From NCBI RefSeq assembly GCF_002234675.1, contig NC_019866.2, positions 3,950,642 to 4,014,641 on the forward strand: a stretch of 64,000 nucleotides of DNA, read 5' to 3'. Each line of letters opens with the position of its first letter. Within the stretch, counting starts at the first letter, position 1. Below are positions 21,427 to 64,000 of this stretch, piece by piece. Made by a program: the position numbers and the translations under genes. Below the pieces are notes generated by a model. That model had not been told where the DNA came from and searched no databases. It worked only from the letters and a program-made list of their open reading frames with translations. Origin of the DNA: Oryzias latipes. Lineage: Eukaryota > Chordata > Actinopteri > Beloniformes > Adrianichthyidae.

Positions 21427-21445
21427 GGTTCCCCACTGATCTCTC

Positions 21446-24464: not shown

Positions 24465-24469
24465 CACCT

Positions 24470-29589: not shown

Positions 29590-30109
29590 TGTCATGGCTA
29601 CAGAACACTTTTCGAACCCAGAAGCTGAAACCCAGAAGGAACACAGCGGGAGGCAAGCGTGGCAGGTAAGAGGTTTAATACGTGGAGCAGGAAACAGAGC
29701 GTGAGCAGGACTGGATGTCGGTTCCAAACTAGAGGCAGAAGTTAGCGGCGTCACTGGTGGATTTCTCCGTAGGCAGATGTTGGTGAAGGATGGGATACTT
29801 GGTCCGCAGGAGAGGACAGATTGGCGAGACCGGCTGGAAACTGATTCTGGCGACCACTCGTGGTACTGGATTCCTGGAGGTGAGTAGAGAGAGACAGTTT
29901 TTAGTCATAGACTTGACGTAACGAAACAGACAATAGCTTGACTTGAGGACCAACTATGCACCATCAGGGGCAACGGACTGGCGAAGACTGATGATCCTGT
30001 GGCTCCTTATGAAGGCGGATGAGATGATGAGGTAAGTGGTCGCAGGTGGGGAGAATCAGCAGCCAAACGGAGAGGAGAGGGGGAGGAGTCTGACAGAGGC
30101 ACCATATCA
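29590..30109 (-). repeat. 5' LTR of the chromovirus element
   Basis: 520 bases, same ends as its partner at 24470-25011. It differs by a handful of substitutions and one short length difference, consistent with a young insertion. It is flanked on the outside by the cacct target duplication. Confidence 0.88.
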
Positions 30110-30114
30110 CACCT

Positions 30115-30876
30115 GGAGTTTGCTTAAAAAAAGTGAGTCTGCATGAGTAACATCCCTTATGCTTACAAGAAATAAAGTAAGCATAATTCAATGCTAAAAG
30201 TTAAATATATGGTGGAAACTTTTTTTTATTGTTCTGAAACTGTTACCTGCATTATAAAATCTATATTTTTTTCACCAATGTAAAAATAAATGTTGTGTCC
30301 ATTCACATTATTGCCTTATAAAAACAGAAATAATCAATCAAACAATATACATTGAATAAGTGTTTTCCTAAATTGTAAATTACAACTTTTTTTTAATGTA
30401 ATATTTTAGAATAATTAGTAAATCTGATTTTACACTTGCGCTATTCTATGGGGTCAAGATGACCATTGACGTGTTAATACTACCATGACAAAGGAGGATA
30501 AAGGTGGAGAGGATTTCATGTAATCCATGGAAATCAGTGAAGATCACAAATCATTGAAGAAAAAAGGTTCAGAGCATTGTCTTGTGGGGTCTAGATGACC
30601 CAACTCCCAACGTTAAAGTGCCTAGGATAGCACAAGGGTTATAACAGTCTTATGAGTTGCTTCAGTCAATCACTGGATGGCGCCGTCTCTTAATGAAATG
30701 CTCTGAATGAAGTCACTTTTACATTTACTGTCATCCAAAAAAATCTATATTAATAATAAATATATAAACTTTTTCTCCTGCTTTATGGATTCAAACTTAC
30801 TTTAATTAAACATTTTTCATACCTTGATTCAAACCTGCTATCCGACTCTCTCACTACAACCAATGTTCAAACTTTT
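30115..30876. other. AT-rich spacer
   Basis: No gene seen. The first 240 bases continue the duplicated block and are found again at about 59426-59665, directly joined there to the empty target site. Confidence 0.5.
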
Positions 30877-40100: not shown

Positions 40101-43100
40101 TTAAAATGACTGAACACAGGAGTGAGAAACTAAAAAAAAAACTAAAAAAAATAGTGATGCCTTCAGGTATTGTCACAGTCAGTCGTTTTATTGTTTATTA
40201 AAATCAATTGGCAGCAGTGAACTGTAGAGAAAAAAAGCATGAAGCTAATTCCAGTGGTGCTTTTTTATAACAATTCAGAGATTAAATCAGGTTTAATGTG
40301 AAAATAGATCTAAATATTAGTAGCACAAAGCCTTAAGTGATGGGTTTTCAAGAGGAAAATGGAAAAGAAAAAGCCTATATGGTGTGAGGCTGAATAAAGT
40401 TTTAAAAAATAAACCCAGAAACTATTCCTAAAGTTTTATTTTCACTTTTACAATAAAAAGACGTTTCCGATAAGTTCCTTTTTTGTTTTCCCATAAAAGT
40501 TTACGCCCACGCGGATTTCCTATCCACCCCGTTTCCTCTCTGAAGGGCTCACCTGTCACGTTGACAGAGTAGATGACGCTTTCCGGGACTTTATACCACA
40601 CATCCACCAAGCTGGCGGTGTGGATGACCACGTCCACGCCCCTGGTGGCGTCCAGCACGCAGCTGTAGTCTGTGATATCGCCCAGGATGACAGACACCTT
40701 CGTCTTCTCTGGGGAGGGAGAAACAGGAAGGCGTTCATTCAAAACCGTGTGTTACCGCATGTGATGCAAAAGTGGAAACGATGGTTTTACACGGAGAGGA
40801 AAAAAGGCTCATCCAACTTCCTGTGGACGGATGGTCATTGATGGTGGATCCATTTATGGGTAAAAGAGAGAAACTTGACAAATGAGGGCGATTACAGCTC
40901 TGATTTTTGGCAATACACCAAAAAACTTGTGAGGCAATAACACTAATCAGCCCCACACTGTGACCCTTTTTTCTCAGGAAAAATGGCAACAAGTATTTAA
41001 ACTACTGTCTGTTTTAATATCCACTGAAATAATTCTGTTAGAAAAATGCAAAAACCGAGTAAACTACATCCAAAAACCTTATAATATTAAGGATAATACT
41101 TAGGATTATATGTTCAAAATGGTTTGTGTCTTTTTTTTACTGCTGCAGAAATGTTTTTTCTATTGCATAAAGAGAAGCGGTTTCTATTAACATATATTTT
41201 ATTTGTAACCCCTAGCCATCAGACTAAGTGGGAACACCTGGCCCCGCCTTTATTTTGAAAGGGTAATTGTGTATATAGCTCCAGGTCAGTGGGTGCACTT
41301 CCTGCATGCTTCTTCCTACTTCCTGCTCTGAGCTCTCAGCTGTTGCTGCTGCTGTGGCCACACCAGGACCCCTAAAACACCTTCTTGAGACATATTTGGA
41401 AACCTCAAAATTTCCATTTCATTAAACCCAAAGAGACCTGCTCATCGGTCAGGTTTTTGTTATGTATGCTTTGATCTACAACTTGATGGCGAGCTACCCA
41501 AATCTGAGATCCTGATACTTCCACCCTCAATAACAACTCCTCAGCTGCAGCAAACCTCAACTACATCCCAACCAATAGACTTTTGGAAACCACTCAATAG
41601 GACTCAGACCCATATCCCGGTTCCTTTTGTTGTTGTTTTTTTTGTATTGTTTAAATGTCTATTTTTTGTTAATACAATAGATTGCATTTTACTTTCATCG
41701 CTGTCTTGTTTTCATTTACACACCTTGGGCTCCCTGAGACGAACTCTGATTAATGCGCCTAGTCACATAATCTGAGAAGCGTTACACGTGGCGAGCTAGC
41801 TAGGAGTCCTGGTGTGTAAATGTTTTTCCTTTTAGTTTGTGTTAATTGAAAAAAAAAAACAAAAAAAAAAACAATGGAGTTTGTGACACGATCTGGACTT
41901 AATGTTAATAAGTCTGTTTTGATTACAGGGGTAACAAACACTAAGGCCGATAATGACGTTATTGACTGTTTGCGTAGTTACGGGAACCTAAGCTGTGTGT
42001 TGTACGTAAACGACCCCACGAGTGCACTACACAAAAACCTGATCGTTGAGTTTGCAGACGAAAATTCATACGCTGCTTTAGAGCCACTGTTGCCGCGCAC
42101 TCATACATCGGCGAATGATGAGCTTGAGTTCCGCTTGACACCTCTAGCCTCCGAGTGTGTTGCCGCAGCAGACAGTAACAGCAGCCCCCCTGACTATCTG
42201 GCCGAATTGAAGAGGATTGCAGATCGGAGTGGCTGTGATTTCGACAATGTCCTGAAGTCGGTGATGACTCAGATCGGCCACCACTTGGATTCAGCAGCAG
42301 CAAAGAATATAATTCTTAAGCATGAAGATGACTATGAGGATGATGACGATGAGGACAGTGACGACAATGAAGAGGAAGCAAGAGGAGTTGACACTGGCTC
42401 AGAACAACCACAACCTGCACCACCTTTCCAGCAGGAGGCGCTACCCCGTCAGCCTAGAGCAAGGCAAAGAACGTCGCTGTCTCCTGACCAACTAAATCCA
42501 CCCGAGGTCCAGAAGGTGGTTGTGGAACATGTGGTTCGGAACACTGACCTACTTTCATCTTTTCCACGTCTGCGACCCTTTTCGGGGAAAACACCCAAGC
42601 AAAGCAACGAAGCAGATTATGATTCCTGGCGTGGACAGATAGTTCTCCTACTGACTGATCCCAGCCTGTCTGCCCTGCAAGTCACCCGGAGGATCATGGA
42701 GAGCCTTCTTTCACCTGCAGCTGACCTGGTGAAGGGGCTAAAGCCAGACACGTTGCCAGCAGTGTTCCTCAATACCCTTGATGCAGCTTTTGGAACTGTT
42801 CAAGATGGAGAAGAACTGTTTGCCCAGTTCCTGAATACCCTCCAAATCCCTGGGGAACGACCATCTGCATACCTCCAGAGGCTGCAGCTAGCACTCAGTT
42901 CTGTTGTCAAGCAAGGGGGCGTTTCACCATCTGAAGTTGACAGACATCTTTTGAAACAGTTCTGCCGTGGGTGTTGGGACAATTCCTTGATTATGAAGCT
43001 GCAACTGGAACAACAAAAAACAAATCCACCCTCGTTTTCTGACCTGTTGCTTCAGCTCAGGACAGAAGAGGACAGACAGCTTGCCAAGGAGTCATTGATG

Positions 43101-46100
43101 AAGCAACACATTGGTGCAGCTAAACAGAAAGCAACCATTCAATCCCACAGTGCCTGTTCATGTGGCCACAGTCCACCATCAAACAGAGAGCTGAAGGAGA
43201 TGAAAGAACAACTCCAAAGACTCCAAAAGCAGATGTCACAGCTTCTGACCCGAAACCTGGCAGCAGAGTCCAAATCCACCACACATCTCAAACCAAGTCC
43301 TCCTCGAAGGTCATCCACCAAGCCCAAGCCTTGGTATTGCTTCAACTGTGGAGAAGACGGTCATGTTTCTTCCACCTGCACAAACAGGGCCGATCCAATT
43401 CTGGTGCAACAGAAGAAAACACTGCTACGTCAAAAACAAGCAGCATGGGAAACAAAGCATCAGTTAAACTGAAGCCAGCTTCTGTGGTGGGACACTCAGC
43501 AGCTGTTTTCCCAAAGAGTCCCAAAGAACCCCTGCAACTGCCAAGAGGCCTAATCGGAACAAAGACATCTGGAAAAGTTAAAATAAACAATCAATCATAC
43601 AACTGTCTTCTTGATTCTGGTTCTCAAGTAACAACGATACCACATTCCTTCCATAAAGCCAACCTCTCAGATCATACCATCAAACCAATCACAGATTTAC
43701 TGGAAATCGAAGGTGCAAACGGGCAAGCCGTACCTTACCTAGGGTTCATTGAATTGAACTTGACCTTTCCAGCTGACCTCCTTGGTCAACCCATAAATGT
43801 TGATACTCTGGCACTCGTTGTACCAGATCAAAACCAGTCAAACCCTCAGATCCTCATAGGCACCAATACCTTAGATGTTGCCTATCACAAACATTACAAG
43901 ACCAAGAAAAGATTTCAGCCTGCTGTTTCTGGTTATTCAGCTTTGTACAAGATCCTCCAACATCGCTCAAATTGCAACTCAAAGAGCCAAGTCACCCCTG
44001 TCACCCTGCGATCCAACCAGCCGTAAACTTTACTGGCTGGACAAACCACTGTCATAGAGGGGAGCCTGGTCGCAAGGCTACAGGGTGAAAAGACTGTAAT
44101 CATCGAGCATCCACAGTCCGGCTCTCTGCCTGGTGGTCTACTCGTGAAAAGCTGTCTTGTCAACCTGCCACAAAAACGGCCATGTCACCTGCCAGTTGTG
44201 GTGTGCAATGAGTCTGACCACCAAATCCAGATTCCTGCAGGAGCCCTAGTTGCGGAAGTCAGTTCGTTTCAGACTATAATTGCAAAAAAACAAAGCATCA
44301 AAGAACTGGATACAGCACAACATCCCCACCTGCAATATGATTTTGGAAAGTCACCCATATCTGCTGAATGGAGACAAAGGATAACCCAGAAGCTAAACAA
44401 CATCCCTGAGGTTTTCGCCACACATGACCTGGGACTTTGGCAGAACCGGCAAAGTTAAGCATGAAATTAAGCTTGCAGACCCTACTCCATTCAAGCAAAG
44501 GTCCAGACCCATTCATCCTCAAGATATCGATGCCGTTAGAAAACACCTTCAAGATCTCCTTGACTCCGGAATCATCCGTGAGTCTGAATCACCATTTGCA
44601 TCCCCCATTGTTGTTGTTCGCAAAAAGGATGGGGGAGTGCGACTTTGCATCGATTACAGAAAGTTGAACCTCCAGACAATAAAAGATGCTTATGCCCTGC
44701 CCAAACTTGAAGATGCCTTCTCTGCCTTATCTGGATCAAAGTGGTTCTCTGTCCTGGACCTGAAATCTGGCTACTACCAGATAGAAATGGAGGAAAAGGA
44801 CAAAGCAAAAACAGCGTTTGTGTGCCCTCTTGGTTTTTGGGAGTTTAACAGAATGCCACAAGGTGTGACAAATGCACCAAGCACTTTCCAGAGGCTCATG
44901 GAGAAGTGTATGGGAGATTTAAATTTGAAAGAAGTATTGGTCTTCATTGATGACATCATTGTGTTCGCACCCACCTTGGAGGAACATGAAGCACGACTCA
45001 TGAGAGTTTTGAATAAACTGAAGGAGTTTGGCCTCAAACTCTCATTGGAGAAATGTGTGTTCTTCCAGACCGAAGTAAAATATCTCGGACATGTGGTGTC
45101 ACAGGAGGGAGTTAAAACCGATCCTGACAAGATCTCCACACTCCTCACTTGGCCTGTCCCCAAGACCCTCAAAGAACTCAGATCCTTCCTTGGCTTTGTT
45201 GGATATTACAGACGGTTTGTTCAGGGATTCTCCACAATCACGAAGCCATTGCACGATCTTACCGCCGGGTATCCACCAACTCAAAAGAACATGAAACCAC
45301 TGGTCAAACCAGGGGCCTATCTGGATCCTAAAGAGCCGTTTAGAGAACGGTGGACACCAATTTGCCAACAAGCCTTCAACAAGATAATAGAAAAACTCAC
45401 TACCGCCCCTGTCCTGGCATTTGCAGATCCCCAAAAGCCATACACACTCCATACTGATGCCAGCTCAACTGGTTTGGATGCAGTGTTATACCAGAAACAC
45501 GACGGAAATGACAGAGTTGTTGCCTACGCCAGCCGAGGACTCTCCAGAAGCGAAGCAAGGTATCCTGCCCACAAGCTGGAATTCCTGGCTCTCAAATGGG
45601 CAGTGACTGAGAAGTTTTACGACTATCTGTATGGTGCACAGTTCACTGTGGTCACAGACAGCAATCCCCTGACGTACATCCTGTCATCAGCCAAACTTGA
45701 TGCTACCAGTTACCGATGGCTTTCTGCCTTGTCCACCTTTGACTTCAAGATTGTCTATCGGGCTGGCAAGCAAAATTTAGATGCTGATGGCCTGTCACGT
45801 CGACCGCACGAGCTGTCCAATGATGCTGTCTCTATCAAAGAACAAGAGCGAATCCAAAGATTTGCACAGCAACACCTAAAAACAGTCACCACACTTGACC
45901 AGTCAACTACAAGAGCAATCTGTGATCGTCACCTGGTGTACAGCTCGTTCCCTGATCCTGCTCATGCCCTTGTTCTCTCAATATCTTCAAGTGTTGACAG
46001 CCTGCCTGACGGTTTCAAAGATGACACCCAGTTCACCTCTTCTGCTGTCCCTCGACTCTTACTAGCTGATCTCGCAGCCAAGCAGCGAGCCGACCCAGTC

Positions 46101-49001
46101 ATTGGACATGTGATTACTCAGCTTGAGCGGGGAGAAACACCACCCCCAGCTGTGAGGGAACAACTACCTGACCTGCCCTTCCTCCTCCGAGAAGTCAATA
46201 AATTGGAGCTCCATAACAACCTTCTGGTGAGGCGACGGCAGGTTGGAGAGGACGTCACCTATCAGTTGGTACTGCCAGAAGAGTACAAACCTGTGGTCAT
46301 GTATCAGCTACACAACCAAATGGGCCACTTAGGCATTGAGAGAACTTTAGATCTCATCCGTTCCCGGTTCTACTGGCCGAAGATGACCATCGACATAGTG
46401 AACAAAATAAAGGGCTGTGAGAGGTGCATTAAACGTAAAACTCCACCAGAACGAGCTGCACCACTAGTCAACATCAAGACATCCCATCCTTTGGAACTTG
46501 TTTGCATGGACTTTCTATCTGTTGAACCAGATGGAAAAACAAAAGACATTCTAGTGATGACTGATCACTTCACCAAATATGCTGTAGCTGTGCCAACACC
46601 AAACCAGAAAGCCAGAACTGTCGCCAAATGCCTATGGGAAAACTTCTTCGTCCACTATGGGATCCCTGCAAAATTGCATAGTGACCAAGGCACAGACTTT
46701 GAATCCAAAACCATCCGTAAGCTCTGTGGTCTGGCTGGGATACAGAAAATAAGGACAACACCCTATCATCCAAGAGGAAATCCTGTGGAACGGTTCAACC
46801 GTACCCTATTGGACATGCTGGGTACGCTCTCCGAACAGGAAAAGAAACACTGGAAAGATCATGTAAAACCCCTCGTTCACGCCTACAACTGCACAAAGAA
46901 TGATGTAACCGGATTCTCGCCCTATGAGTTAATGTTTGGCCGCCAACCCCGCCTACCGATAGATCTTGCTTTTGGGCTTCCCTTGAAAGAGGACCGATCA
47001 CCCTCTTACAGGGAGTATGTTCAGAAGTTGACCTCCCACTTAGAGGAGAATAGACGGGCAGCCATTATTAATGCAGCAAAAGCCATGAAGAAAAACAAAG
47101 AGAGGTTTGATCGTCATGTTATAGCTGCAGATCTGGATGTTGGGGAGAGGGTCCTGGTCAGGAATGTGCGACAACGGGGAAAGCACAAGCTGGCGGACAA
47201 ATGGGAAAAATCAGTGTATATTGTTGTGAGTAAGGCCGGCCATTTACCAGTATACACCGTTCGACCAGAGCACTGTGATAAGCCGTTGAGGACATTACAT
47301 AGAGACCTTCTCTTACCTTGTGCTTTCTCATCAATACCTCCAGGGGAACCAGTTTCCAGAAAGAAACCAATGAAGGAAGACAGTTCTCCTGTGTCGCCTA
47401 CACCACCTACTACAACAGATTCTTCAGTGGATGAAGACGAACAGGTGTATATTCTGTCACCTACTGAACCAGTCAGTTTCACCTCTACCTTTTTCTTGCC
47501 GGCAGTACAGCAACCAGATTCTACCACCCAATGTGAAACCCCTCTCCTAGCTCGACCGTCTGTCACTAGCACTGCTGATGTTGATGACGGTGAAAGGGGA
47601 GAGGCTCAGGAGGATACTATCCTCCACCAGGAACTGGTGGGTGCTGTTGAATCTAGTCCTGCATCTGTGACATTGGATGCCAGCAGAGGTCCTGAAGCTG
47701 TGTCAGCCGCAACACAAAAAACTCCTGGACCATTGCAAGCTGAAGCGGGACCAGCCTCTTCAGTCGAATCTGTCCCAGTGCCTGCGGATCCTACACAATT
47801 AAGGGAGGAGCCAACCTCGCCTGTGACATCTGAGTCGCACAGTCCGGAGGAGCCGCAGTTGCGAAGGGGACAGCGTGTCAGAACACAACCAGTCCGCCTT
47901 CAGTATCCGAAACCTGGTAGACCCCTTTTGCAAAGTATCCAGACCGTGCTCCATGGATTAAGCTCTGCCTTCTTCTTCGCCCTCAAGGATGATGAAGAAC
48001 CTGAAGCGTCATCCTGTTGCACTGATCTACCAGAGCAGTTTCCACATGAACGAGGACGTTCATGGGATAAGGGGGGGGAAGTGTAACCCCTAGCCATCAG
48101 ACTAAGTCGGAACACCTGGCCCCGCCTTTATTTTGAAAGGGTAATTGTGTATATAAGCTCCAGGTCAGTGGGTGCACTTACTGCATGCTTCTTCCTACTT
48201 CCTGCTCTGAGCTCTCAGCTGTTGCTGCGGCCACACCAGGACCCCTAAAACACCTTCTTGAGACATATTTGGAAACCTCAAAATTTCCATTTCATTAAAC
48301 CCAAAGAGACCTGCTCATCGGTCAGGTTCTTGTTATGTATGCTTTGATCTACAACTTGATGGCGAGCTGAGATCTGAGATCCTGATACTTCCACCCTCAA
48401 TAACTCCTCAGCTGCAGCAAACCTCAATTACATCCCAACCAATAGACTTTTGGAAACCACTCAATAGGACTCAGACCCATATCCCGGTTCCTTTTGTTGT
48501 TGTTTTTTTTGTATTGTTTAAATGTCTATTTTTTGTTAATACAATAGATTGCATTTTACTTTCATCGCTGTCTTGTTTTCATTTACACACCTTGGGCTCC
48601 CTGAGACGAACTCTGATTAATGCGCCTAGTCACATAATCTGAGAAGCATTACATATTACATCTATTTTTATTTACATTTTACTAAATTTATTTTATGAAC
48701 ATGAAATAAAAATAAAGTTTTCTGCTATGTTTTTATTTAAACATCATCGCAGTTAACGTTAAGTTGTTGCTTTTTTTTCTTCTTCTTTTTTTAAAAGTCT
48801 ATTTAAAAACAATAAGCTGTTAAGCAGATATCTCATCTTACCGGTACCGGCTCCGTTCAAAGTGGCGTCGCTCCGCTTGTCAAACACACGGATCTCCGTG
48901 ATCCGGTCCTCCTTCTCCAGCAAAAGCCTCAGCAGGTGTTTGCCCAGGAACCCGCAGCCCCCGGTGATCAGGTAGACGAGGTCTCGCCGGTCCTCAGACA
49001 T
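34124..49001 (-). CDS. hsd3b7: 3-beta-hydroxy-delta5-C27-steroid oxidoreductase, complete
   Basis: Six coding exons on the minus strand, in transcript order: 48842-49001, 40553-40708, 38349-38457, 36169-36268, 35280-35442, 34124-34536. Borders are GT-AG and phases agree; 1,101 bases, 366 residues (human 369). The enzyme oxidises and isomerises 7-alpha-hydroxylated C27 sterols in the ER, an early step in bile-acid synthesis from cholesterol. Visible signatures: NAD-binding G14-G-C-G17-F-L-G20 near the start; YTSSMEV with the catalytic Ser (about 127); Y157-P-K-S-K161, the SDR catalytic pair; [12 protein letters not shown]; and a hydrophobic membrane stretch [14 protein letters not shown] near the C-terminus. 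The block [20 protein letters not shown] is closer to HSD3B7 than to the gonadal HSD3B enzymes. Intron 1 (8.1 kb) contains an antisense Gypsy element. Setd1a lies just upstream on the same strand, as in human. Confidence 0.93.
35766..36075 (+). repeat. Dispersed repeat family, copy 2 (hsd3b7 intron 4)
   Basis: Shares cagagagctctcagcaaagg, a GGGGAAGGG-type purine block and ctctgcagaaactatgtcctag with the copies at 16886-17140 (opposite strand) and 38986-39445. It starts near a gatgaaaaatcacatttttg block that copy 3 also has in modified form. Limits are approximate. Confidence 0.6.
36502..37318. mobile_element. Probable nonautonomous DNA transposon in hsd3b7 intron 3
   Basis: The left end gctgcattcacactgca (36502-36518) matches the reverse complement of tgcactgtaaatgcggc (37302-37318) at 14 of 17 positions, giving terminal inverted repeats about 817 bases apart. 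The interior is rich in the word ATCCGAT on both strands, forming sub-terminal repeats. It has no transposase. The superfamily is unclear; hAT or Harbinger-like are candidates. No target duplication was confirmed. Confidence 0.5.
38986..39445 (+). repeat. Dispersed repeat family, copy 3 (hsd3b7 intron 2)
   Basis: The longest of the three copies: cccactcccatgaaaatgg start, cagagagctctgagcaacag core, a purine-rich ggaaggggaaaggg block and cagaaacaatgacccagaa, then a tail with caaaagatgatctggtgg. Matches copies at 16886-17140 and 35766-36075 block by block with many differences, so the family is old. Confidence 0.6.
41204..41786 (+). repeat. 5' LTR of the PNMA-like-Gag Gypsy element
   Basis: 583 bases, begins TGTAACCCC and ends GTTACA, with a TATATAG promoter-like motif and the duplicate at 48082-48653. 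Confidence 0.9.
48082..48653 (+). repeat. 3' LTR of the PNMA-like-Gag Gypsy element
   Basis: 572 bases, preceded by the polypurine tract aaggggggggaag (48069-48081) and followed by the tatt target duplication. Present again, base for base in length, at 62766-63337. Confidence 0.9.
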
Positions 49002-49090
49002 GCTGCCGCGCTCACACGAGACGAATAAACTGAACAACCAGCAGGTACGGCAGCGCGGAGGGCTCAAACACAGAAACGCTTAACACGCCT

Positions 49091-49097
49091 TTTTATA
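49091..49097 (-). promoter_or_regulatory. hsd3b7: TATA box of hsd3b7
   Basis: TATAAAA on the minus strand, 90 bases upstream of the hsd3b7 ATG. It predicts a start near 49065 and a leader of about 65 bases, so the ATG is in the first exon. A CpG-bearing stretch surrounds it. Confidence 0.65.
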
Positions 49098-49099
49098 CC

Positions 49100-51252
49100 G
49101 TTTGAACCGTCATATTGGACAGACGCGATGACACAAGCCCCGCCCCCCCAAAACATCTAGCAAGAAAAATATATATTTGCTACTTTATATAAATAAATAA
49201 ATAAACAAAATGTGCTACTTTATGAACTATGGAAGTAGATTGTACTTAGATGGTTGAATTCATAACTAAAACTCAGTAAGTTTGTTCACTCTAAGCATTC
49301 ACCAGTTTGTGTTTTTTTTAATTTTTTACTTGAGCTGAATGCAATATTAACACAAATTATTAATTTATTATTTCCTGTTTTTCCATTGGCTTTATGAACG
49401 GTCCTCCAATGAATTACAGACGTATTCTCCTGAAGATTCTCCAGAAGATGCTCATTAAACTAGAACTTTACACATGGATGATGCATAAAAAAGGTGAGTG
49501 ATGAATCTTTGTTGACAAGCAGGTAGAGTTGCTTCAATAATTAAGCGGGTTTGGTTGAAATCCTGAAGGAGAAAACAAGAATAAAAAATGTTTTCCCTGT
49601 AAATAAATTAAATACACCCTTGAAGCCAAAGCTTTCCTTGTCTGTTGGTCAAAAGTATTTATCCATTTAAAACACGGGGATCCCGTTCACTGCGGTGCAA
49701 CGCAAACCTGCTGAAGTTGATGGATTTAGCAGGCGACTCTTTATTTCCACAGACTGCCTTCAATTGGAGGAATCTTTATGGAGCAGCTGCACTCCCAGAA
49801 TAATGCATTTTCTAAAAGCCTAAAAATGTGAGGGGAGGAACAAAAACAATACTAAAACTTTGAAAACGTCTGACTTTATCAAGCAAATATGATTATTTAA
49901 AACATCTGCAGCACAAAAAAGTTTAACACTGACCACTTTTTTTTTTTAGACTAAGTGTTAATCTTCACAAGGAAATAAAAAGACCTAACATTTGCAAGTG
50001 GAAATAAACTGTAAAGAAATGAGGAAAAAAAACCAAAGAAACTGCAAATATACACATCTCACACTGTTTGTGTGTGTGTGTGTGTTTTTTTTGTCTAGCA
50101 AGATTTATGTGCTTTTAATCGAGTGGCTGGAAAACCAAAGAGAATGAAGAGAAAGGGGATGAAAAACAGTTTGCCATCCGGATGAAGGCAGAGAAAAGGA
50201 CAAAGGGAATGCTAACACTGGGGCTCGCCATGAAAGCAGCAGGTGGAACCTCACGCTTCTGCAGCCGCCATCGATGTTTGCTGAACGCATTCAACAGAAC
50301 TACATGTTAAAGGTGTATTAAAAAACACTCCCAACACCGAAGAACGGATGAAACGACAAAGAACAAATAAATTAAAAGGTTAAAAGCAAATGCATGTGGA
50401 GGACGCGCCAGTTAAAAAGAAAAACAACCTCTTCGTAACGATTCAGCCGCTGTGTAGGAACTAAACACGCCATTAGCTAAACAGGAAGTTGCAGCGAGTC
50501 TGGACAGAAACAACCAGCAGGGAAAGTAAAGGACAGTTTGGAATCACAGAACCACAGCGGGTAGAAATGCTGAAGCTCAACTCACTGTCAGATACTTTGT
50601 TAATTCAACCAAGCTTATAATTCTAATTATAACAGCAAGAGTAATATTCTACTGACGCACGGAAAGGAAATTAAAAGACGACCTTCACACTTGGAAATCC
50701 TGCAACGGTGAAAAACCAAATAGAGTGAAGTAAATTTTAAAAGTGCGCCCTCAACAGGAGCTTTTAAAAACCCTGAAGTTAGTCTGGTGTTTCTGTGCGT
50801 TTATGGAAGGGGGGGGTCTGAACGGGAACGGGACGTTTGCGTTCTCTGCAGGATCGTGGGGCACAGAAAAATCAAAAGATCTGTGGGGTGAGCCGAAACG
50901 GTCGCCGTGGCAACAGGGAAACAACCTCTCTCTGTGGGTGTAGGAAACCAAATCCGCCTGGAAAATGTGTTCAAGTCCGACAATACTGCGACAGACGGGG
51001 TCAAGACGCCACCGTCGGCGGGTGCGCGCCCCCATCACAGACTGCGGGACAGCCCCGTCCATGAAGCTGTGCATACAAAGTGCAAATGCCTGCGTCACGG
51101 TTTCCTACTCAACTGAAGTCATCCGGAGAGCTAACCGGTCTCCAACGTTGGCTTCGTTTCTACTTTGCTAGCACTCATCAGGAAGGAGAACCAAAAGGGT
51201 GAAAGGGTCCGGCAGGACGTTGGCAAGAAACGGAAAGGGGGAAGTGCTTTCG
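49100..51252 (-). other. Interval between hsd3b7 promoter and setd1a stop; probable setd1a 3' UTR in its right part
   Basis: No coding exon was found. The right part, adjoining the setd1a stop at 51253, is less AT-rich and probably belongs to the setd1a 3' untranslated region; the poly(A) site could not be fixed. A TG microsatellite lies at 50069-50084. Positions up to about 49316 are found again at the window end. Confidence 0.45.
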
Positions 51253-53043
<1,791 letters not shown>

Positions 53044-53206
53044 ATGGATAATCAAAAGAGGAGAACTGAGCAGAATGTAGCTTCTTTCATAAATTATTTG
53101 CTTTAGTGCTTGAACCAAACAGTCTCTTTGTTCCTTTTAAGAATTTCAACCCAAACTATATTAATTGAGTGCTTGCTGTTCAATATAAAATTACTTTATG
53201 ACTTAC

Positions 53207-54085
53207 TTTGTGTCGCTGTACTGATTCCCGCCCAGGAAGCCATATTTATCAGTGCGTTTGACAGTGAGGCCATTGATCTCGGAGTCGGAGCCCACGGAGC
53301 TCCCGTCCTCTCCCAGTCCAGATAGGGACTCCAATGTTCCCGACATCAGGCTGGCGGATTCCAGGTAACTCAGGGTGTCGGGGGCCGGCGTATGGGAGGA
53401 CGGGCTCTTGGATCATTGGGACCGTGGGGCTAGAGTGTCCAGCTCGGGTTGGAGTGTGGAAAAGCTCTGGCTTGTTGGGTTCACCAGATAAGCGAGGCTT
53501 TGGGGACAAAGGAGGAGGCTTACTTAGAGGCTTTTGTTCTTGTTCAACTGTCTGAGGAGTCTCCACCTCAGCCGCTGTTGCAGCTGAAGAAGCAGTTGTG
53601 GGAGTGAAATCGGGCACCTTCTCAGATTGGCCGTCCTCATGGCTTACCTGCACATTAGGGTACAGAGTAACATCTAGATCAGGTGGACAGGACGCTTGCA
53701 GCTCTGTGCTTGGATCTGAAGGCCCACTTGCACATTGTGGAGCTTCCACTGCATTCGGGAGTTCTGCAGCAGCCGGGACACTGTTGGATTTCTCATTTGA
53801 CTCTTGATTTCCTGACGGTGGAGGGGGAGTTTCTCCTGCAAGTGTGGGGGGACTTGCGGACAAATGTGGAGTCAACGGTGAAGCGTTTGAGGATGCTGCA
53901 GAAGCGTTTCCACTCAGAGCTTTGTCATTGTAAAGGGAAGACTTGGGAAGAGGCATTTCCTGAATAGATTCTGGTGGAGTGTTGCTAGCAGGAGGGAGCG
54001 CAGATGAAGACGGAGTTATGGGTGGGGCTGCACAGGGATCACCCAACGCAGGCGGAGATGGGGATAACGTGGAGAGCTCAGCCAT
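53207..54085 (-). pseudogene. tbc1d10b: Second copy of tbc1d10b coding exon 1, frameshifted
   Basis: Matches 20537-21426 closely, with the same ATG (54085) and the same donor (exon end 53207), but 11 bases (ccgcggtttgg of copy A, near 20720-20730) are missing, so the length is 879 instead of 890. The frame shifts after about residue 235 and the conserved TDKYGFLGG block falls out of frame. There are no further tbc1d10b exons in this copy: setd1a intron sequence begins just beyond the donor. It is therefore either a partial duplicate that cannot make the protein, or one haplotype's true exon placed wrongly, with the deletion real or an assembly error. Confidence 0.8.
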
Positions 54086-54103
54086 GGTTCCCCACTGATC
54101 TCT

Positions 54104-55290
54104 CCTTGAGAAATACAGAGAACATATTTAATTAGCTATAACAATTCAAAGAGATCATATCAATTTAACTATGACTGTAAAACAAAAATTATCTAAAAAA
54201 AATGCTTAAACTTTTCAAATTAAGAGCCAGTCATTTGCATTGTAAATCAAATTTTTTGACAAATGTCACAATGGGTAATAAAGCATTTACCAAACAGCTG
54301 CATACAAATGTATTTTTTATAAAAACAACAATAAATTAATAAAAGCTCAAAAAAATCCTTCAGCAAACATTTGTAATGTACATTTTTATAGAACTACCTG
54401 ACAAAAGTGATGCGTTGGGGTTTACAGAATACTTAAGGGTCATAACTGAATCAATGAAGCTGCGTGTTTCATTAAAAAAATACATTTTCGTGTATAAATA
54501 TATTTTATTTAAGGTCTGCTTTTATTTTGACACAAGGGCAGAACCGCTTTGCTAATGCAGGTTCACGCGCGTGAAGGCTAATCGATCCGCGCGCGGGTGT
54601 AGGCTAGCAGCGAATAACTCTTTGTTGTCATTCAGCGAAGCAGCCCCGGCGACACAACTTCCCGAATCAGCAGCAAAGGGTTTAGTCACTGTTCACAGCG
54701 TCGAGGCCCCGGCCGAGCGGCGTCCACGGCCTCACCCTGCCCACTGCATCACCCAACAAGTTCATCATCTCCGATGGTGAACTCACCCTCGACCTGCGTG
54801 TCACTGCGATCCGTCCTCCTGGGTAGCCAGGGGTTTCCTGTACATAATACACCCACCCCCGCCACAGCTCCGGCTCCACAGCGTCTTCCGTTTACCGAGG
54901 GTCCCAAGCCGCCCGACCGGATAGAAACACAGAAAAATGTTCGCTGTTGAGGAGCAAATATTCCGCATTAGCAAGCTAAGTTGCAAACTAGCTAATTTTT
55001 AGCCCCTTAACTATTAGCATTAGCGTCGTTGCTGTGTTAGCCGAGCTTATCTGAAGGTTTCGATCTCCACATTAGACATGCGCACTATCAGCCTCATCAA
55101 ACGGCACTAAAAAACTTTATTTTAAAAATGTTAAATATTTCTAAAAGAATGCTACGCGTTCAAATTATTCAAGCTTAGCGGCTGCAGTGCACACTGCCCG
55201 AACACCCAGCATTTCCTACTGACAGCTACGTGCGCGCGGCCGCTGGTGTCGTGAACGTGCACGTACAGGAGCCTCCCTTCTACGGGGCAT
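54104..55290 (-). promoter_or_regulatory. tbc1d10b: Second copy of tbc1d10b leader intron, noncoding exon and promoter
   Basis: Equivalent of 21446-22620: the same acceptor beside the ATG exon, a leader donor at 54787/54786 (GAGG|GTGAGT), and the CpG-rich block ending in gcgcgcggccgc near 55235. Small indels distinguish it from copy A. If real, it could drive a transcript that runs from tbc1d10b exon 1 into setd1a sequence. Confidence 0.5.
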
Positions 55291-57522
55291 CACCACTGTC
55301 TGGTCATCTTTAGATGATGTGAACGTTTACCACGTTTTTCAAACTAATATTCGGTCTGGCTCTGTTTTTATATCTCACTTGGTGTTTTTAAAATTTATTT
55401 TTGATGCACCAAAAAGTTGGAAGTTATTTATTGCTAATAAAAACTAGTGTAATGCATTATTAAAACGTTTATGAGGAATATTTTACTCTTTGCATGCTCA
55501 GATATCTTTGTATTACAACCTACTTTACATCCCAATTTTATATTTATATTTAGAGATGAGACCATGAAGCATTTTAAGACAAAGATTGTATTTTTTTTAT
55601 TTATACATGTTTGCCAACAAGCCAAAACCAATTAATCGGCAAATTCACAGACTAAAATCTCTAAAGATAACATAATGTTCAGAAAAAATATACCAAATAA
55701 AAAAATAAGACTGTAAATATAATACAAAAGATACAATAAAATAAAACTGTTTTTTTTCTGCTTACGCTTCGTGACTTTTAGCCTTTTTTATACATAAATG
55801 TAAATTACTGAGCTAAATTTTCTGTCAGGCTTCATACATCCATACTTTTTATTAAATGTTTGTGTTTCCTTTATGTTTTGCTCTGTGCTTTTCACAGATC
55901 TGTCCGTTCGTCCTGTTATTGTAGGCTATAGGTGCAGTGATTTAAACCTGCTTTTATGACAGTATTTTTCTGAGGCACACAGAGCTCAGCTTCTCTGTTG
56001 GGTCTCAATTTTCCCTTTTTCCAAAGTTAAAAAAACAACATTATTTTCCTTTCTATAAATTGCCTAAAACACAGGGTGGCTCCCTCAATTATTCTTTAAG
56101 TAAATACCAAAAACAAACACTATTATTATTAGTAGTTAATACGACCCCACACCGCCCCCTCATCCTTAAAAATACTTTGTGGCACAGTTGTTTCTTCCTT
56201 CTAATCTTTCTGCTGGCATTGTGCATAAAGTAACTTTGAATCAAACATTACAGGAATAATGAAGAACGCAGTGCAATTTTGAGGGAAGTAAATATGGGGA
56301 TATTCTTTGAACAACAGATATAAATAATCTGTAATGTGATACAGTTTAAAAGTAACTTGCAATAAAACTGATCTGACGCAGAATCTAGTAAATCAGGAAG
56401 TGCTTCAGAATTCAATTCAGTATGACAGCATTTACCACTTTTTGCACCTTGTAATACCTTCAGAAAAGCTTCATCATAGGCCAGCTGACCAACGTTTGCA
56501 ACCTGGTGGTTGTTGTAAATCAGTTCTGCTTGTCAGGAGTCAGATTTGGATTTTAGTCATTTTAAAATCGAATCAGTTTAAAAGATAACATGCTTCCATC
56601 ACATTTTCTCAATGTGGCAAACATAAATATCTCAGAAAAACTTAAAAAATGATTTTCAATACACCAAGAGATGTTATTATTTTACAACTTAGACTGAATT
56701 CAATTATCTTATGGAAAATGTTCAATGATGTTGTGTTTGTTTGGCTAGATTTATTGTTGCAGTTATACAAAACCACAATAACTATGATCTAAATGTAAAA
56801 AAATGTTTGAAATATTTCTAATTACAACTTTGTAACTCAAACTCAAACTTTATTTATTTATATAGCGCCTTTCATTTTGGTTAAAAACACAAAGCGCTTA
56901 ACATAAAAACAGATAAAACAGTCATAAAAAATGAAAGTTGTTCAAAACAGAAAACAAAGGACAATCCCACAAAGAAGGTACCCCTCCCTCACCACCCCCC
57001 GCCCCTATCCCCACCCACCCAGTTACCCCAGTAGAACAGTGAACAGAAACAAATAACTGCAGTTGAAGAAGGTCTGGCTTGGTACTGCTGTGAGGAAACG
57101 ATATCATGGGGATCCATTCATTCCAAGGCCCAGCCGGACCACAGGGGCCATTACCGCAGCGCCCGCCCAACACAGGGCAGCCCAGGGCCCCATCCATGGC
57201 TATTAGACCACAGAGTGGGACCCCAGCCCGCCCAACCAGAACGGGCACCACAGCAACGGCACGCCCTACAGGTCAAGCTGGTGGTGCCCAAGAACGATGG
57301 ATCCCCCAGAGGAAACACTGGAGTAAAAAAAACATCAGAATAAAAAATAAAAATGATCATAAAATAACAACAATAAAAATAGAAAAAGATAAAAAATAAA
57401 ATAAGATATAAGAATGTTAGTAATTAAAAAATAAAAGCGTCAGTGATTAAAACATAACCTAAGTATCATTGGTAAAATAACAATAAAAAGAATTGCATAT
57501 TATAAACAAAGATAATAATAGT

Positions 57523-58340
57523 TGAAGGAAAGAGAATCGTCCGTTTTCGGGTTCTTTCCATCCATGCGTGTTCGATAGTCGAGAGTGGTAAAAACAAACA
57601 AGGATTCAACCGGTTTAAAAATACACGGAGTTTATTTCCCTGACAATAGTTCTAAAGCACAGATTAAAACATTAATGCAGATATATCTGGATTCTCAAGT
57701 AAAGATCTACTGACGCACAAGTTACATGCGAATTACTCGTAGATTTTCCTAAGAACAATGGAAAACTTTGAAAACAGTCTTTTTAAGATGTGTTTGAATC
57801 TCCGCCTTCCGGAAAGATCATGGTCGCTGGTCCTCCGCCCCTGGTCGCTCTGATTCATCAGCTGATAGCCCGCCTGCTTCCTCTGGCCAATAGCTGACGA
57901 TTGCCAGCTTCGGATCCGCTCCGCCTCTCGGGGGCCCATTTCACCGGCGCACACAGTCCGATGATCAAGAGAGTCCCCATCTGGTCAGAGTAAATCATTC
58001 CTGGACAACTCAAGGTTCCTTTTACCGGTATCCAGAGCAAAGGTCAGCTTCAACCTCCACATGAGAACACGAATCTTCACACTTTCCCAGGGGAAGAATC
58101 TTCAACCCAGATGGTACAGATATCGCCCATGGCATATTTATGGCACCTAAGAAAAACACCTAAGTTTGCACAAAGAACATCCTATGTCTTCACAGGATGC
58201 TGCAACCATAAAGCAAAAAGGAATGTCACACGACCATAAATCTGGATAGTTCAAAATAAGTTCACTTCACACTAAGGATAAAGCTGTAACATAATAAAGA
58301 ATAAGATATTAAAACATACATTTTCTACATAGTCCTTACA
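57523..58340 (-). mobile_element. Possible solo LTR nested in the L2 LINE
   Basis: An 818-base block that does not resemble L2 3' sequence, begins TG and ends CA (minus strand TGTAAGGAC to CTTTCCTTCA) and carries an AATAAA signal towards its 3' end. These are LTR features, and the size fits a retroviral or Gypsy-type solo LTR. No clear target duplication was found and the ends are inferred, so the call is tentative. Family unknown. Confidence 0.4.
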
Positions 58341-58342
58341 AG

Positions 58343-58430
58343 AAAATAAATAAATAGATAAATAAATAAATAAACAAATAAATATGTAAATAAATACCTC
58401 AATTAATAAATAGATGAATAATAAAAGACA
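58343..58430. repeat. AAAT-type simple repeat
   Basis: Irregular run of aaat units beside the L2 reading frame, probably expanded from the element's A-rich 3' region. Confidence 0.7.
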
Positions 58431-59665
58431 TAAGGAATGATCAAAGTCATATAAAAGCCAGACTAAAAAGGTGGGTCTTGAGCCTCTTCTTAAAAACCTC
58501 TACAGTCTCTGCGGCCCTGAGGTTCTCCGGCAGGCCGTTCCACAGGCGAGGACCGTGATGGCAGAATGAAGCCTCACCATGTGTCTTGGTCCTTACCCTA
58601 GGGACAACTAAGAGGCCAGTGCCAGAGGACCTCAGGGTCCGCGAGGGTTCGTATTTTAAAATAATATCATTTAAATAAGAGGGCCCAAGACCATAAAAAC
58701 ATTTATAAACCATTAAAAGAACTTTAAAATCAATCCTGAAACGCACAGGGAGCCAATGCAGCGATTTTAAAACCGGTGTAATGTGTTCCCGCCCTCTGGT
58801 TCTCGTCAGAACTCGTGCCGCTGAGTTCTGTAGAAGTTTTAGATTTGAGATCGACTTTTTGGGTAAACCAGAGAGCAGGGCATTACAGTAATCTAAACGA
58901 CTAAAAATAAAAGCATGCATTAGCATCTCTGTGCTGGCAAGAGAGAGGAACGGGCGGACTCTGGCAATGTTTTTGAGATGATAAAATCCTATTTTCACAA
59001 TGTTTCTGATGTGAGGGATAAAATTCAGCTCAGAGTCAAAAAGAACGCCCAGGTTTCTCACACACTGAGAAGACTTAAATTCCTAAGTTTGGGTAAAATC
59101 ATCTCTCTCTTGCTCTGTTGCTCTTCATTGTGTAATGATCTAGTTTTGATTTCGGTGCTTTTTCTGAGGAGATCTTTAACCACTGAAACCTTGGAATGTT
59201 ATAAGTCAAGTTGGCCACAAGAGGGCGGCAGAGCACCGATCAGGGCTGGTTGTTTCCACTTCTTGTAGAGCAGAAGCTGTTTTTAGATGTTTATTCTGTA
59301 TTGACAGAAGGTGCACGTTTAGTTTCATGTTTTTCTTAATTGACAAAAATGTCTAAGGGGATAACTCTAAAGCTGGATTTGCCATGAAGCTGATTCCTGA
59401 ATCAGGAAGTTTTTTAATGACTCACCTGGAGTTTGCTTAAAAAAAGTGAGTCTGCATGAGTAACATCCCTTATGCTTACAAGAAATAAAGTAAGCATAAT
59501 TCAATGCTAAAAGTTAAATATATGGTGGAAACTTTTTTTTATTGTTCTGAAACTGTTACCTGCATTATAAAATCTATATTTTTTCACCAATGTAAAAATA
59601 AATGCTGTCTCCATTCACATTATTGCCTTATAAAAACAGAAATAATCAAACAAACAATATACATT

Positions 59666-60665
59666 NNNNNNNNNNNNNNNNNNNNNNNNNNNNNNNNNNN
59701 NNNNNNNNNNNNNNNNNNNNNNNNNNNNNNNNNNNNNNNNNNNNNNNNNNNNNNNNNNNNNNNNNNNNNNNNNNNNNNNNNNNNNNNNNNNNNNNNNNNN
59801 NNNNNNNNNNNNNNNNNNNNNNNNNNNNNNNNNNNNNNNNNNNNNNNNNNNNNNNNNNNNNNNNNNNNNNNNNNNNNNNNNNNNNNNNNNNNNNNNNNNN
59901 NNNNNNNNNNNNNNNNNNNNNNNNNNNNNNNNNNNNNNNNNNNNNNNNNNNNNNNNNNNNNNNNNNNNNNNNNNNNNNNNNNNNNNNNNNNNNNNNNNNN
60001 NNNNNNNNNNNNNNNNNNNNNNNNNNNNNNNNNNNNNNNNNNNNNNNNNNNNNNNNNNNNNNNNNNNNNNNNNNNNNNNNNNNNNNNNNNNNNNNNNNNN
60101 NNNNNNNNNNNNNNNNNNNNNNNNNNNNNNNNNNNNNNNNNNNNNNNNNNNNNNNNNNNNNNNNNNNNNNNNNNNNNNNNNNNNNNNNNNNNNNNNNNNN
60201 NNNNNNNNNNNNNNNNNNNNNNNNNNNNNNNNNNNNNNNNNNNNNNNNNNNNNNNNNNNNNNNNNNNNNNNNNNNNNNNNNNNNNNNNNNNNNNNNNNNN
60301 NNNNNNNNNNNNNNNNNNNNNNNNNNNNNNNNNNNNNNNNNNNNNNNNNNNNNNNNNNNNNNNNNNNNNNNNNNNNNNNNNNNNNNNNNNNNNNNNNNNN
60401 NNNNNNNNNNNNNNNNNNNNNNNNNNNNNNNNNNNNNNNNNNNNNNNNNNNNNNNNNNNNNNNNNNNNNNNNNNNNNNNNNNNNNNNNNNNNNNNNNNNN
60501 NNNNNNNNNNNNNNNNNNNNNNNNNNNNNNNNNNNNNNNNNNNNNNNNNNNNNNNNNNNNNNNNNNNNNNNNNNNNNNNNNNNNNNNNNNNNNNNNNNNN
60601 NNNNNNNNNNNNNNNNNNNNNNNNNNNNNNNNNNNNNNNNNNNNNNNNNNNNNNNNNNNNNNNNN
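59666..60665. other. Assembly gap, 1,000 N
   Basis: Exactly 1,000 N, a conventional size for a gap of unknown length. By comparison with copy A, the true missing sequence would be about 15.6 kb, holding hsd3b7 coding exons 2-6, the RTE LINE and the left part of the second Gypsy element. Confidence 0.95.
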
Positions 60666-63337
60666 CAATATCTTCAAGTGTTGACAGCCTGCCTGACGGT
60701 TTCAAAGATGACACCCAGTTCACCTCTTCTGCTGTCCCTCGACTCTTACTAGCTGATCTCGCAGCCAAGCAGCGAGCCGACCCAGTCATTGGACATGTGA
60801 TTACTCAGCTTGAGCGGGGAGAAACACCACCCCCAGCTGTGAGGGAACAACTACCTGACCTGCCCTTCCTCCTCCGAGAAGTCAATAAATTGGAGCTCCA
60901 TAACAACCTTCTGGTGAGGCGACGGCAGGTTGGAGAGGACGTCACCTATCAGTTGGTACTGCCAGAAGAGTACAAACCTGTGGTCATGTATCAGCTACAC
61001 AACCAAATGGGCCACTTAGGCATTGAGAGAACTTTAGATCTCATCCGTTCCCGGTTCTACTGGCCGAAGATGACCATCGACATAGTGAACAAAATAAAGG
61101 GCTGTGAGAGGTGCATTAAACGTAAAACTCCACCAGAACGAGCTGCACCACTAGTCAACATCAAGACATCCCATCCTTTGGAACTTGTTTGCATGGACTT
61201 TCTATCTGTTGAACCAGATGGAAAAACAAAAGACATTCTAGTGATGACTGATCACTTCACCAAATATGCTGTAGCTGTGCCAACACCAAACCAGAAAGCC
61301 AGAACTGTCGCCAAATGCCTATGGGAAAACTTCTTCGTCCACTATGGGATCCCTGCAAAATTGCATAGTGACCAAGGCACAGACTTTGAATCCAAAACCA
61401 TCCGTAAGCTCTGTGGTCTGGCTGGGATACAGAAAATAAGGACAACACCCTATCATCCAAGAGGAAATCCTGTGGAACGGTTCAACCGTACCCTATTGGA
61501 CATGCTGGGTACGCTCTCCGAACAGGAAAAGAAACACTGGAAAGATCATGTAAAACCCCTCGTTCACGCCTACAACTGCACAAAGAATGATGTAACCGGA
61601 TTCTCGCCCTATGAGTTAATGTTTGGCCGCCAACCCGCCTACCGATAGATCTTGCTTTTGGGCTTCCCTTGAAAGAGGACCGATCACCCTCTTACAGGGA
61701 GTATGTTCAGAAGTTGACCTCCCACTTAGAGGAGAATAGACGGGCAGCCATTATTAATGCAGCAAAAGCCATGAAGAAAAACAAAGAGAGGTTTGATCGT
61801 CATGTTATAGCTGCAGATCTGGATGTTGGGGAGAGGGTCCTGGTCAGGAATGTGCGACAACGGGGAAAGCACAAGCTGGCGGACAAATGGGAAAAATCAG
61901 TGTATATTGTTGTGAGTAAGGCCGGCCATTTACCAGTATACACCGTTCGACCAGAGCACTGTGATAAGCCGTTGAGGACATTACATAGAGACCTTCTCTT
62001 ACCTTGTGCTTTCTCATCAATACCTCCAGGGGAACCAGTTTCCAGAAAGAAACCAATGAAGGAAGACAGTTCTCCTGTGTCGCCTACACCACCTACTACA
62101 ACAGATTCTTCAGTGGATGAAGACGAACAGGTGTATATTCTGTCACCTACTGAACCAGTCAGTTTCACCTCTACCTTTTCTTGCCGGCAGTACAGCAACC
62201 AGATTCTACCACCCAATGTGAAACCCCTCTCCTAGCTCGACCGTCTGTCACTAGCACTGCTGATGTTGATGACGGTGAAAGGGGAGAGGCTCAGGAGGAT
62301 ACTATCCTCCACCAGGAACTGGTGGGTGCTGTTGAATCTAGTCCTGCATCTGTGACATTGGATGCCAGCAGAGTCCTGAAGCTGTGTCAGCCGCAACACA
62401 AAAAACTCCTGGACCATTGCAAGCTGAAGCGGGACCAGCCTCTTCAGTCGAATCTGTCCCAGTGCCTGCGGATCCTACACAATTAAGGGAGGAGCCAACC
62501 TCGCCTGTGACATCTGAGTCGCACAGTCCGGAGGAGCCGCAGTTGCGAAGGGGACAGCGTGTCAGAACACAACCAGTCCGCCTTCAGTATCCGAAACCTG
62601 GTAGACCCCTTTTGCAAAGTATCCAGACCGTGCTCCATGGATTAAGCTCTGCCTTCTTCTTCGCCCTCAAGGATGATGAAGAACCTGAAGCGTCATCCTG
62701 TTGCACTGATCTACCAGAGCAGTTTCCACATGAACGAGGACGTTCATGGGATAAGGGGGGGGAAGTGTAACCCCTAGCCATCAGACTAAGTCGGAACACC
62801 TGGCCCCGCCTTTATTTTGAAAGGGTAATTGTGTATATAAGCTCCAGGTCAGTGGGTGCACTTACTGCATGCTTCTTCCTACTTCCTGCTCTGAGCTCTC
62901 AGCTGTTGCTGCGGCCACACCAGGACCCCTAAAACACCTTCTTGAGACATATTTGGAAACCTCAAAATTTCCATTTCATTAAACCCAAAGAGACCTGCTC
63001 ATCGGTCAGGTTCTTGTTATGTATGCTTTGATCTACAACTTGATGGCGAGCTGAGATCTGAGATCCTGATACTTCCACCCTCAATAACTCCTCAGCTGCA
63101 GCAAACCTCAATTACATCCCAACCAATAGACTTTTGGAAACCACTCAATAGGACTCAGACCCATATCCCGGTTCCTTTTGTTGTTGTTTTTTTTGTATTG
63201 TTTAAATGTCTATTTTTTGTTAATACAATAGATTGCATTTTACTTTCATCGCTGTCTTGTTTTCATTTACACACCTTGGGCTCCCTGAGACGAACTCTGA
63301 TTAATGCGCCTAGTCACATAATCTGAGAAGCATTACA
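60666..63337 (+). mobile_element. 3' part of the PNMA-like-Gag Gypsy element, second copy, broken
   Basis: Equivalent to 45979-48653: integrase region, C-terminal tail, purine tract and a 572-base 3' LTR (62766-63337), followed by the same flank, so it is the same insertion in the duplicated segment and not a new one. The left part is hidden by the N run. It carries a few more breaks than the first copy, mainly one-base length differences in short runs of one base, which could be real decay or consensus error. Confidence 0.88.
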
Positions 63338-63525
63338 TATTACATCTATTTTTATTTACATTTTACTAAATTTATTTTATGAACATGAAATAAAAATAAA
63401 GTTTTCTGCTATGTTTTTATTTAAACATCATCGCAGTTAACGTTAAGTTGTTGCTTTTTTTTCTTCTTCTTTTTTTAAAAGTCTATTTAAAAACAATAAG
63501 CTGTTAAGCAGATATCTCATCTTAC

Positions 63526-63685
63526 CGGTACCGGCTCCGTTCAAAGTGGCGTCGCTCCGCTTGTCAAACACACGGATCTCCGTGATCCGGTCCTCCTTCT
63601 CCAGCAAAAGCCTCAGCAGGTGTTTGCCCAGGAACCCGCAGCCCCCGGTGATCAGGTAGACGAGGTCTCGCCGGTCCTCAGACAT
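63526..63685 (-). CDS. hsd3b7: Second copy of hsd3b7 coding exon 1
   Basis: Identical in reading to 48842-49001: 160 bases from ATG (63685) encoding [20 protein letters not shown] and ending at the same donor (ACCG|GTAAGA). The NAD-binding glycines are intact. The remaining exons would lie in the N run, so whether this copy is complete cannot be told. Nothing in the exon suggests decay, which favours a haplotype or very recent duplicate. Confidence 0.85.
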
Positions 63686-63774
63686 GCTGCCGCGCTCACA
63701 CGAGACGAATAAACTGAACAACCAGCAGGTACGGCAGCGCGGAGGGCTCAAACACAGAAACGCTTAACACGCCT

Positions 63775-63781
63775 TTTTATA
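63775..63781 (-). promoter_or_regulatory. hsd3b7: TATA box of the second hsd3b7 copy
   Basis: Same TATAAAA, same 90-base distance from the ATG as in the first copy. Confidence 0.55.
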
Positions 63782-64000
63782 CCGTTTGAACCGTCATATT
63801 GGACAGACGCGATGACACAAGCCCCGCCCCCCCAAAACATCTAGCAAGAAAAATATATATTTGCTACTTTATATAAATAAATAAATAAACAAAATGTGCT
63901 ACTTTATGAACTATGGAAGTAGATTGTACTTAGATGGTTGAATTCATAACTAAAACTCAGTAAGTTTGTTCACTCTAAGCATTCACCAGTTTGTGTTTTT

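Follow-up and report, generated by a model that had tools for sequence, protein, structure and literature searches.

A probable tandem duplication (about 32.5 kb) in chromosome 8 of medaka, overlain by a false duplication at a contig overlap

A true direct tandem duplication, some 32.5 kb long, with a separate false duplication of 13.7 kb lying on top of it, is the likely explanation of a seam between two genes on chromosome 8 of medaka (Oryzias latipes). The seam lies between positions 53043 and 53044 of the 64-kb stretch of DNA that was analysed (the window), where a transposon piece and filler bases are joined to intron 1 of tbc1d10b. The genome search placed the window at C8:3950642-4014641, and the source assembly is taken to be that of the Hd-rR reference strain. 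An exact Tol2 end is present in it 14 times, against none for the reversed control sequence, and PMC5705604 gives 15 full-length Tol2 copies for Hd-rR. The duplication at the seam is probably real, and most likely it is a tandem duplication.

Base-by-base comparison fixed the seam exactly. From 53044 on, the sequence matches that from 20374 onward over 3.8 kb, at 97.2% identity counting gaps, with 57 mismatches by BLAST and 64 by MAFFT. Left of the seam lies the setd1a intron that precedes the last three exons, at the end of this minus-strand gene; to the right follow part of tbc1d10b intron 1 and then the minus-strand tbc1d10b exon 1. A first-pass annotation of the window had started the match to 20374 at this same base, had tied the left side to the setd1a SET exons and had reported no N run at the join. 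All three observations were borne out: the match starts exactly there, three exons with a PF00856 match lie within 51253-51870, and the sole N run among the 304 kb examined is that at 59666-60665. The seam sits inside contig sequence and is carried by both contigs flanking that N run (contigs A and B), and the genome search found it a second time, with the equivalent of base 53044 at C8:4018365.

Two copies of the segment lie adjacent to one another on the same strand. Copy 1 (20374-52879, plus strand) holds tbc1d10b exon 1, hsd3b7 and the last three setd1a exons, and aligns in nine blocks to 67724-89519, which is copy 2 once the contig overlap is set aside and which belongs to contig B, outside the window. 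In contig A, copy 2 begins at the seam and runs to the N gap (53044-59665, plus strand), and this part aligns to 20374-24157, 24156-24469 and 30110-30353. The copies differ at 242 of 17,229 aligned bases (1.40%), with a transition/transversion ratio of 1.44. Divergence is 0.6-1.9% in seven of the blocks, and 5.3% (225 bases) and 3.6% (753 bases) in the other two; the two more diverged blocks, at 40977-41201 and 48673-49432, respectively, flank a gypsy insertion. The outer flanks of the segment were each found once, and homology ends at the seam coordinates. To the left of 20374 the sequence has no match but itself, and two other matches begin exactly at 20374 (three of three candidates scored). 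Among the best 40 of 1,097 candidates, the setd1a N-SET region has one full match in the genome, and its 42 other matches are partial and all within its last 440 bases; 38 of these are longer, at no more than 80% identity, and the short ones reach 92%. No third continuation of either side of the seam was found in the best 40 of 1,342 candidates. The genome searches covered 25 sequences, a set outside which any unanchored contigs would lie.

Each copy carries insertions of its own. Copy 1 alone has an LTR element at 24470-30109, with CACCT on both sides and a single CACCT at the empty site of copy 2, a further insertion at about 30875-32750, and a Gypsy-type LTR element in hsd3b7 intron 1 (41204-48653, plus strand) with RVT_1, RNase H, rve and PNMA matches, which is absent from copy 2. 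Copy 2 alone has a LINE-like insertion at 56838-59114 (minus strand), identified by eye, the longest frame of which gave no Pfam match, as well as other insertions. Within the LTR element at 24470-30109 there is a 605-bp direct repeat (26606-27210/28969-29573, 98.8%) separate from the terminal repeats, and the insertion at about 30875-32750 has an inverted relative, 98.2% identical, at window positions -22443 to -20568. The gag-like frame of the Gypsy-type element (41850-43469) has a match to Pfam PNMA (E 7.8e-24); the more familiar members of that family are domesticated genes of vertebrates.

The coding part of tbc1d10b exon 1 is open and intact in copy 1 (20537-21426, minus strand). Its counterpart in copy 2 (53207-54085, minus strand) has an 11-bp frameshifting deletion, besides four nonsynonymous and three synonymous changes in 879 bp; no more tbc1d10b exons lie beyond it, and intron 1 halts at the seam. 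The gene is putatively tbc1d10b, on our own reading and a RabGAP-TBC match at 16425-16700, a name under which the paralogues of tbc1d10b are not separated. In copy 1, hsd3b7 has six coding exons (34124-49001, minus strand; PF01073) with an open frame of 366 amino acids. Both copies of this gene are open, with six nonsynonymous and two synonymous changes between them, so that the proteins differ at 6 of 366 residues; the Pfam score of copy 1 (302.8 bits) is slightly under that of copy 2 (305.4 bits), and an NCBIfam search and a solved-structure search with hsd3b7 gained nothing further. The last three setd1a exons (51253-51426, 51515-51652 and 51751-51870, minus strand) encode the SET domain, and the best PDB matches are Set1-type H3K4 methyltransferases. 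The gene is putatively setd1a and not a sister Set1 gene. The piece at 51253-51870 is without the N-SET and RRM exons, into both of which copy 2 continues.

Selection tests across hsd3b7, the SET exons and tbc1d10b exon 1 are mixed and small. Over their 432 bp, the truncated SET exons show no nonsynonymous and one synonymous change between the copies, where 5.2 were expected (P 0.035), a low divergence that would fit constraint; most of the divergence could predate the duplication. The frameshift in the truncated tbc1d10b exon 1 would fit redundancy, and it supports the duplication in that such a piece is predicted to be dispensable. The single synonymous change of the SET exons counts against the duplication, since it resembles a constrained allele. 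Taken over the locus, tbc1d10b with its TBC exons occurs once, setd1a with N-SET and RRM occurs once, and there are two open hsd3b7 genes and two truncated pieces. An ordinary segmental tandem duplication has closed geometry, truncated genes at its edges and a doubled gene in its interior. The medaka locus appears to be of this kind, with closed geometry, the remaining exons of the edge genes present once each and hsd3b7 doubled.

The seam itself contains a hybrid transposon. Reading along the plus strand, the element of the setd1a intron (to 52879) is followed by five bases, what looks like a piece of another copy of the family (52885-53040), three bases and then tbc1d10b intron 1. The setd1a intron of copy 2 holds a longer element, of roughly 1 kb, from a dispersed family. 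The left piece of the hybrid (52671-52879) differs from 89311-89519 at 2 of 209 positions and is the same insertion as that in the setd1a intron of copy 2; near-identity on the right side of the duplicated unit ends at 52879, within the element, and the left breakpoint is inside the transposon. The five filler bases at the first switch (52880-52884) agree with neither element side, and the filler TGG at the second (53041-53043) agrees with neither source. In copy 2 the two pieces are separated by 476 bp of element body, missing at the seam before 52885.

The right piece is apparently another copy of the family. It differs from the copy 2 element at 10 of 156 positions, from two copies on chromosome 1 at 9 of 156 each, and from two further family copies at 16 of 154 and 17 of 156; the left and right pieces thus stand at 2/209 and 10/156 differences from the copy 2 element (Fisher P 0.0055). 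Besides the two seam copies, its genome matches are 85-92% identical among the best 40 of 1,089 candidates, where the top score outside the seam belongs to copy 2's own element (222 bits), followed by the two chromosome 1 copies (219 bits), so that the foreign origin of the piece depends on the mismatch counts. No such element was seen in copy 1 at 20374, and the 156-bp piece suggests that a transposon stood in the donor's tbc1d10b intron 1 at the right breakpoint. That the seam is a true transposon end, as matches of the right piece ending at query positions 239-242 might indicate, was considered and rejected: the element of its relatives extends about 160 bp further, and the matches stop there because the query leaves the element. 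The first-pass annotation had proposed, as one of two readings, a tandem duplication with microhomology, about ATGGATA at most being shared at the join. The duplication is the favoured part of that reading; the microhomology did not hold up, as ATGGATA is simply the start of the copied intron, the five element copies compared on the left side all read AAATAAAATAAA at the join and TGG is unmatched. In its place stand a hybrid transposon and two short unmatched inserts.

Based on these observations, an unequal, transposon-associated exchange may have linked the setd1a-intron element on one chromosome with intron 1 of tbc1d10b from a diverged haplotype, and the hybrid element left behind would carry two short fillers. 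Clean homologous recombination is a poorer fit to such a hybrid than template switching or imperfect end-joining. The donor chromosome would have borne, next to position 20374, a truncated member of the family that copy 1 is without, and the right piece would derive from the tbc1d10b intron 1 of that other haplotype. The product would consist, on the left, of tbc1d10b with its downstream exons and, on the right, of setd1a with its upstream exons, with two hsd3b7 genes, an isolated exon 1 of tbc1d10b and a setd1a 3' piece severed from the exons upstream of it; the seam would then exist in the fish and not in the assembly only. The fuller account, in which the exchange took place between deeply diverged haplotypes and the 32.5-kb duplication became fixed in Hd-rR with two hsd3b7 genes, one of them free to change, is tentative and in our view rather doubtful. 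The haplotypes would have to diverge about as much as other strains do from HdrR by short reads.

The breakpoint shares some features with transposon-mediated rearrangements in humans. A survey of these, as far as its text was available (PMC9675761), includes duplications, and a hybrid transposon at the breakpoint with small inserts is common to both. However, the medaka hybrid rebuilds no full element (476 bp are absent), and on its right it abuts non-element sequence. The homologous class of the survey has a full element rebuilt with microhomology, and at the seam there are five filler bases in place of it; the incomplete hybrid and its end in non-element DNA therefore put the medaka case nearer the non-homologous class described there, in which the two breakpoints lie in transposons and come with little microhomology and small insertions. 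The unit of about 32.5 kb also exceeds the maximum stated in that part of the survey (25,425 bp). No description of the duplication was found in the portions of the main-text literature on medaka setd1a, tbc1d10b and hsd3b7 that were covered.

The false duplication is a different matter. The tail of contig A (45979-59665, plus strand) is repeated as the head of contig B (60666-74348), with no substitutions and 12 indel columns in 13,691, across a spacer of 1000 Ns at 59666-60665; the part of contig B within the window (60666-64000, plus strand) is the same DNA as 45979-49316. Each of the differences is a change in homopolymer length: nine are steps of one base, and one is a step of three bases within a run of G. 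If these columns diverged by 1.40%, as the two copies do, they should hold about 192 substitutions, and none was observed. The pair reads as one 13.7-kb stretch assembled twice, an unmerged contig overlap and thus a false duplication. Given how FALCON builds contig ends, the overlap may represent one error-corrected read with the seam near its middle. Seven of the 12 columns could be arbitrated by a third copy or an open frame, and these gave six contig B errors left of the seam and one contig A error to the right. This is the error pattern expected if few reads cross the seam, a point against the duplication, although ordinary contig ends could also give it. The long G run at 51933-51947 is 15, 12 and 13 bases long in the three copies assembled and is likely a sequencing-error spot.

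According to the relevant text of PMC5705604, the Hd-rR assembly was made of FALCON contigs with 1-kbp gaps put between neighbouring contigs; contigs subsumed by longer ones were discarded, and merging of overlapping ends goes unmentioned in that text. A near-identical repeat flanking an assembly gap is what marks homotype false duplications, and the pair 45979-59665/60666-74348, lying across a gap with no substitutions, fits this under-collapsed kind as set out in the available part of PMC9516828. With a 13.7-kb repeat alongside the seam, read depth over 53.0-64.0 kb would be misleading as a test of copy number. The drop in divergence at the N gap, from 1.7% to 0%, had suggested that 53044-59665 is a piece of haplotype sequence inserted ahead of a redundant contig. 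This idea was rejected, for the seam recurs inside contig B and copy 2 continues there at 1.40%.

Among the alternatives, the one that survives best, which we nevertheless consider unlikely, is a heterotype false duplication, in which copies 1 and 2 are alleles and the assembler attached the start of one behind the end of its counterpart. Segment-wide divergence with transposons present or absent on both sides, the occurrence of the edge genes with all their domains once each, outer flanks found once and the low divergence of the SET exons are all in its favour. So is an earlier count: Table 1 of PMC7064643, within what was seen of that paper, gives a single medaka hsd3b7, which also counts against the duplication. 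Further, inbred medaka are sometimes incompletely homozygous (PMC8862526, PMC3962483, in the parts available). The MIKK panel retains residual heterozygosity, and the homozygosity of the classical strains iCab and HO5 is about that of the panel (PMC8862526), and a few blocks of wild-like heterozygosity occur in inbred lines (PMC3962483). However, HdrR has passed through 80 brother-sister generations, and the available text of PMC3962483 puts heterozygosity at about 3e-5 in most inbred strains measured, which is not a value for HdrR itself, and at 1.5e-3 in a wild catch. Alleles are therefore unlikely in a strain inbred to F80, and it is difficult to see allelic variation in a divergence of 1.40%, which exceeds the heterozygosity of the wild catch about ninefold. 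Nucleotide diversity in southern Japanese stocks is given as 0.0036 in the consulted part of PMC6325896. The evidence from inbreeding is strong but not absolute. Gaps between the two members of a pair are a listed hallmark of false duplications in the same part of PMC9516828, and the 32.5-kb pair is unlike the heterotype kind in having no gap or N at the seam and coming from an inbred genome. A hybrid element with filler is also unexpected from an overlap join, and one of the two tbc1d10b exon 1 copies is frameshifted. The second reading offered by the first-pass annotation, an assembly misjoin of two haplotypes, is likewise disfavoured at the seam itself, where the strain is inbred, there is no gap and no second continuation turned up among the candidates scored; a real assembly fault does adjoin it, in the form of the contig overlap.

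It is quite improbable that a chimeric read linked two real, non-adjacent paralogous loci. A single read could account for the 13.7-kb overlap, the seam lying close to the centre of it, and to that extent this counts against the tandem duplication; however, none of the candidates scored from the 25 sequences showed the continuation of each side elsewhere that this explanation predicts, and the extra element piece at the join would be unexplained. Strain contamination or an introgressed block as the source of one copy is the least credible of all: 1.40% resembles the 1.3-1.37% by which four other strains diverge from HdrR (PMC3962483, as available), but the assembly-based divergence of Hd-rR from HNI is 2.455% (PMC5705604, same part), and contamination by itself yields no seam.

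If the tandem duplication is real, the gene counts of the reference would change, with hsd3b7 becoming two genes and setd1a and tbc1d10b each gaining a truncated neighbour. The 13.7 kb of spurious extra copy in the assembly is not to be counted. Around 4.0 Mb on chromosome 8 of medaka, this bears on read depth, on variant calling and on counts of gene copies, and the locus offers a worked case of a likely real duplication told apart from the contig-overlap artefact that overlies it. Two other features were seen in the surroundings. A cluster of direct repeats (0.4-3.1 kb, 88-94% identity) lies 78-100 kb upstream, at C8:3850644-3872793 (window positions -99997 to -77848), and extends to the edge of the sequence examined. 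Within the window, 2761-3114 is a plus-strand PH-domain exon (PF00169) of a neighbouring gene that looks sesquipedalian-like by eye.
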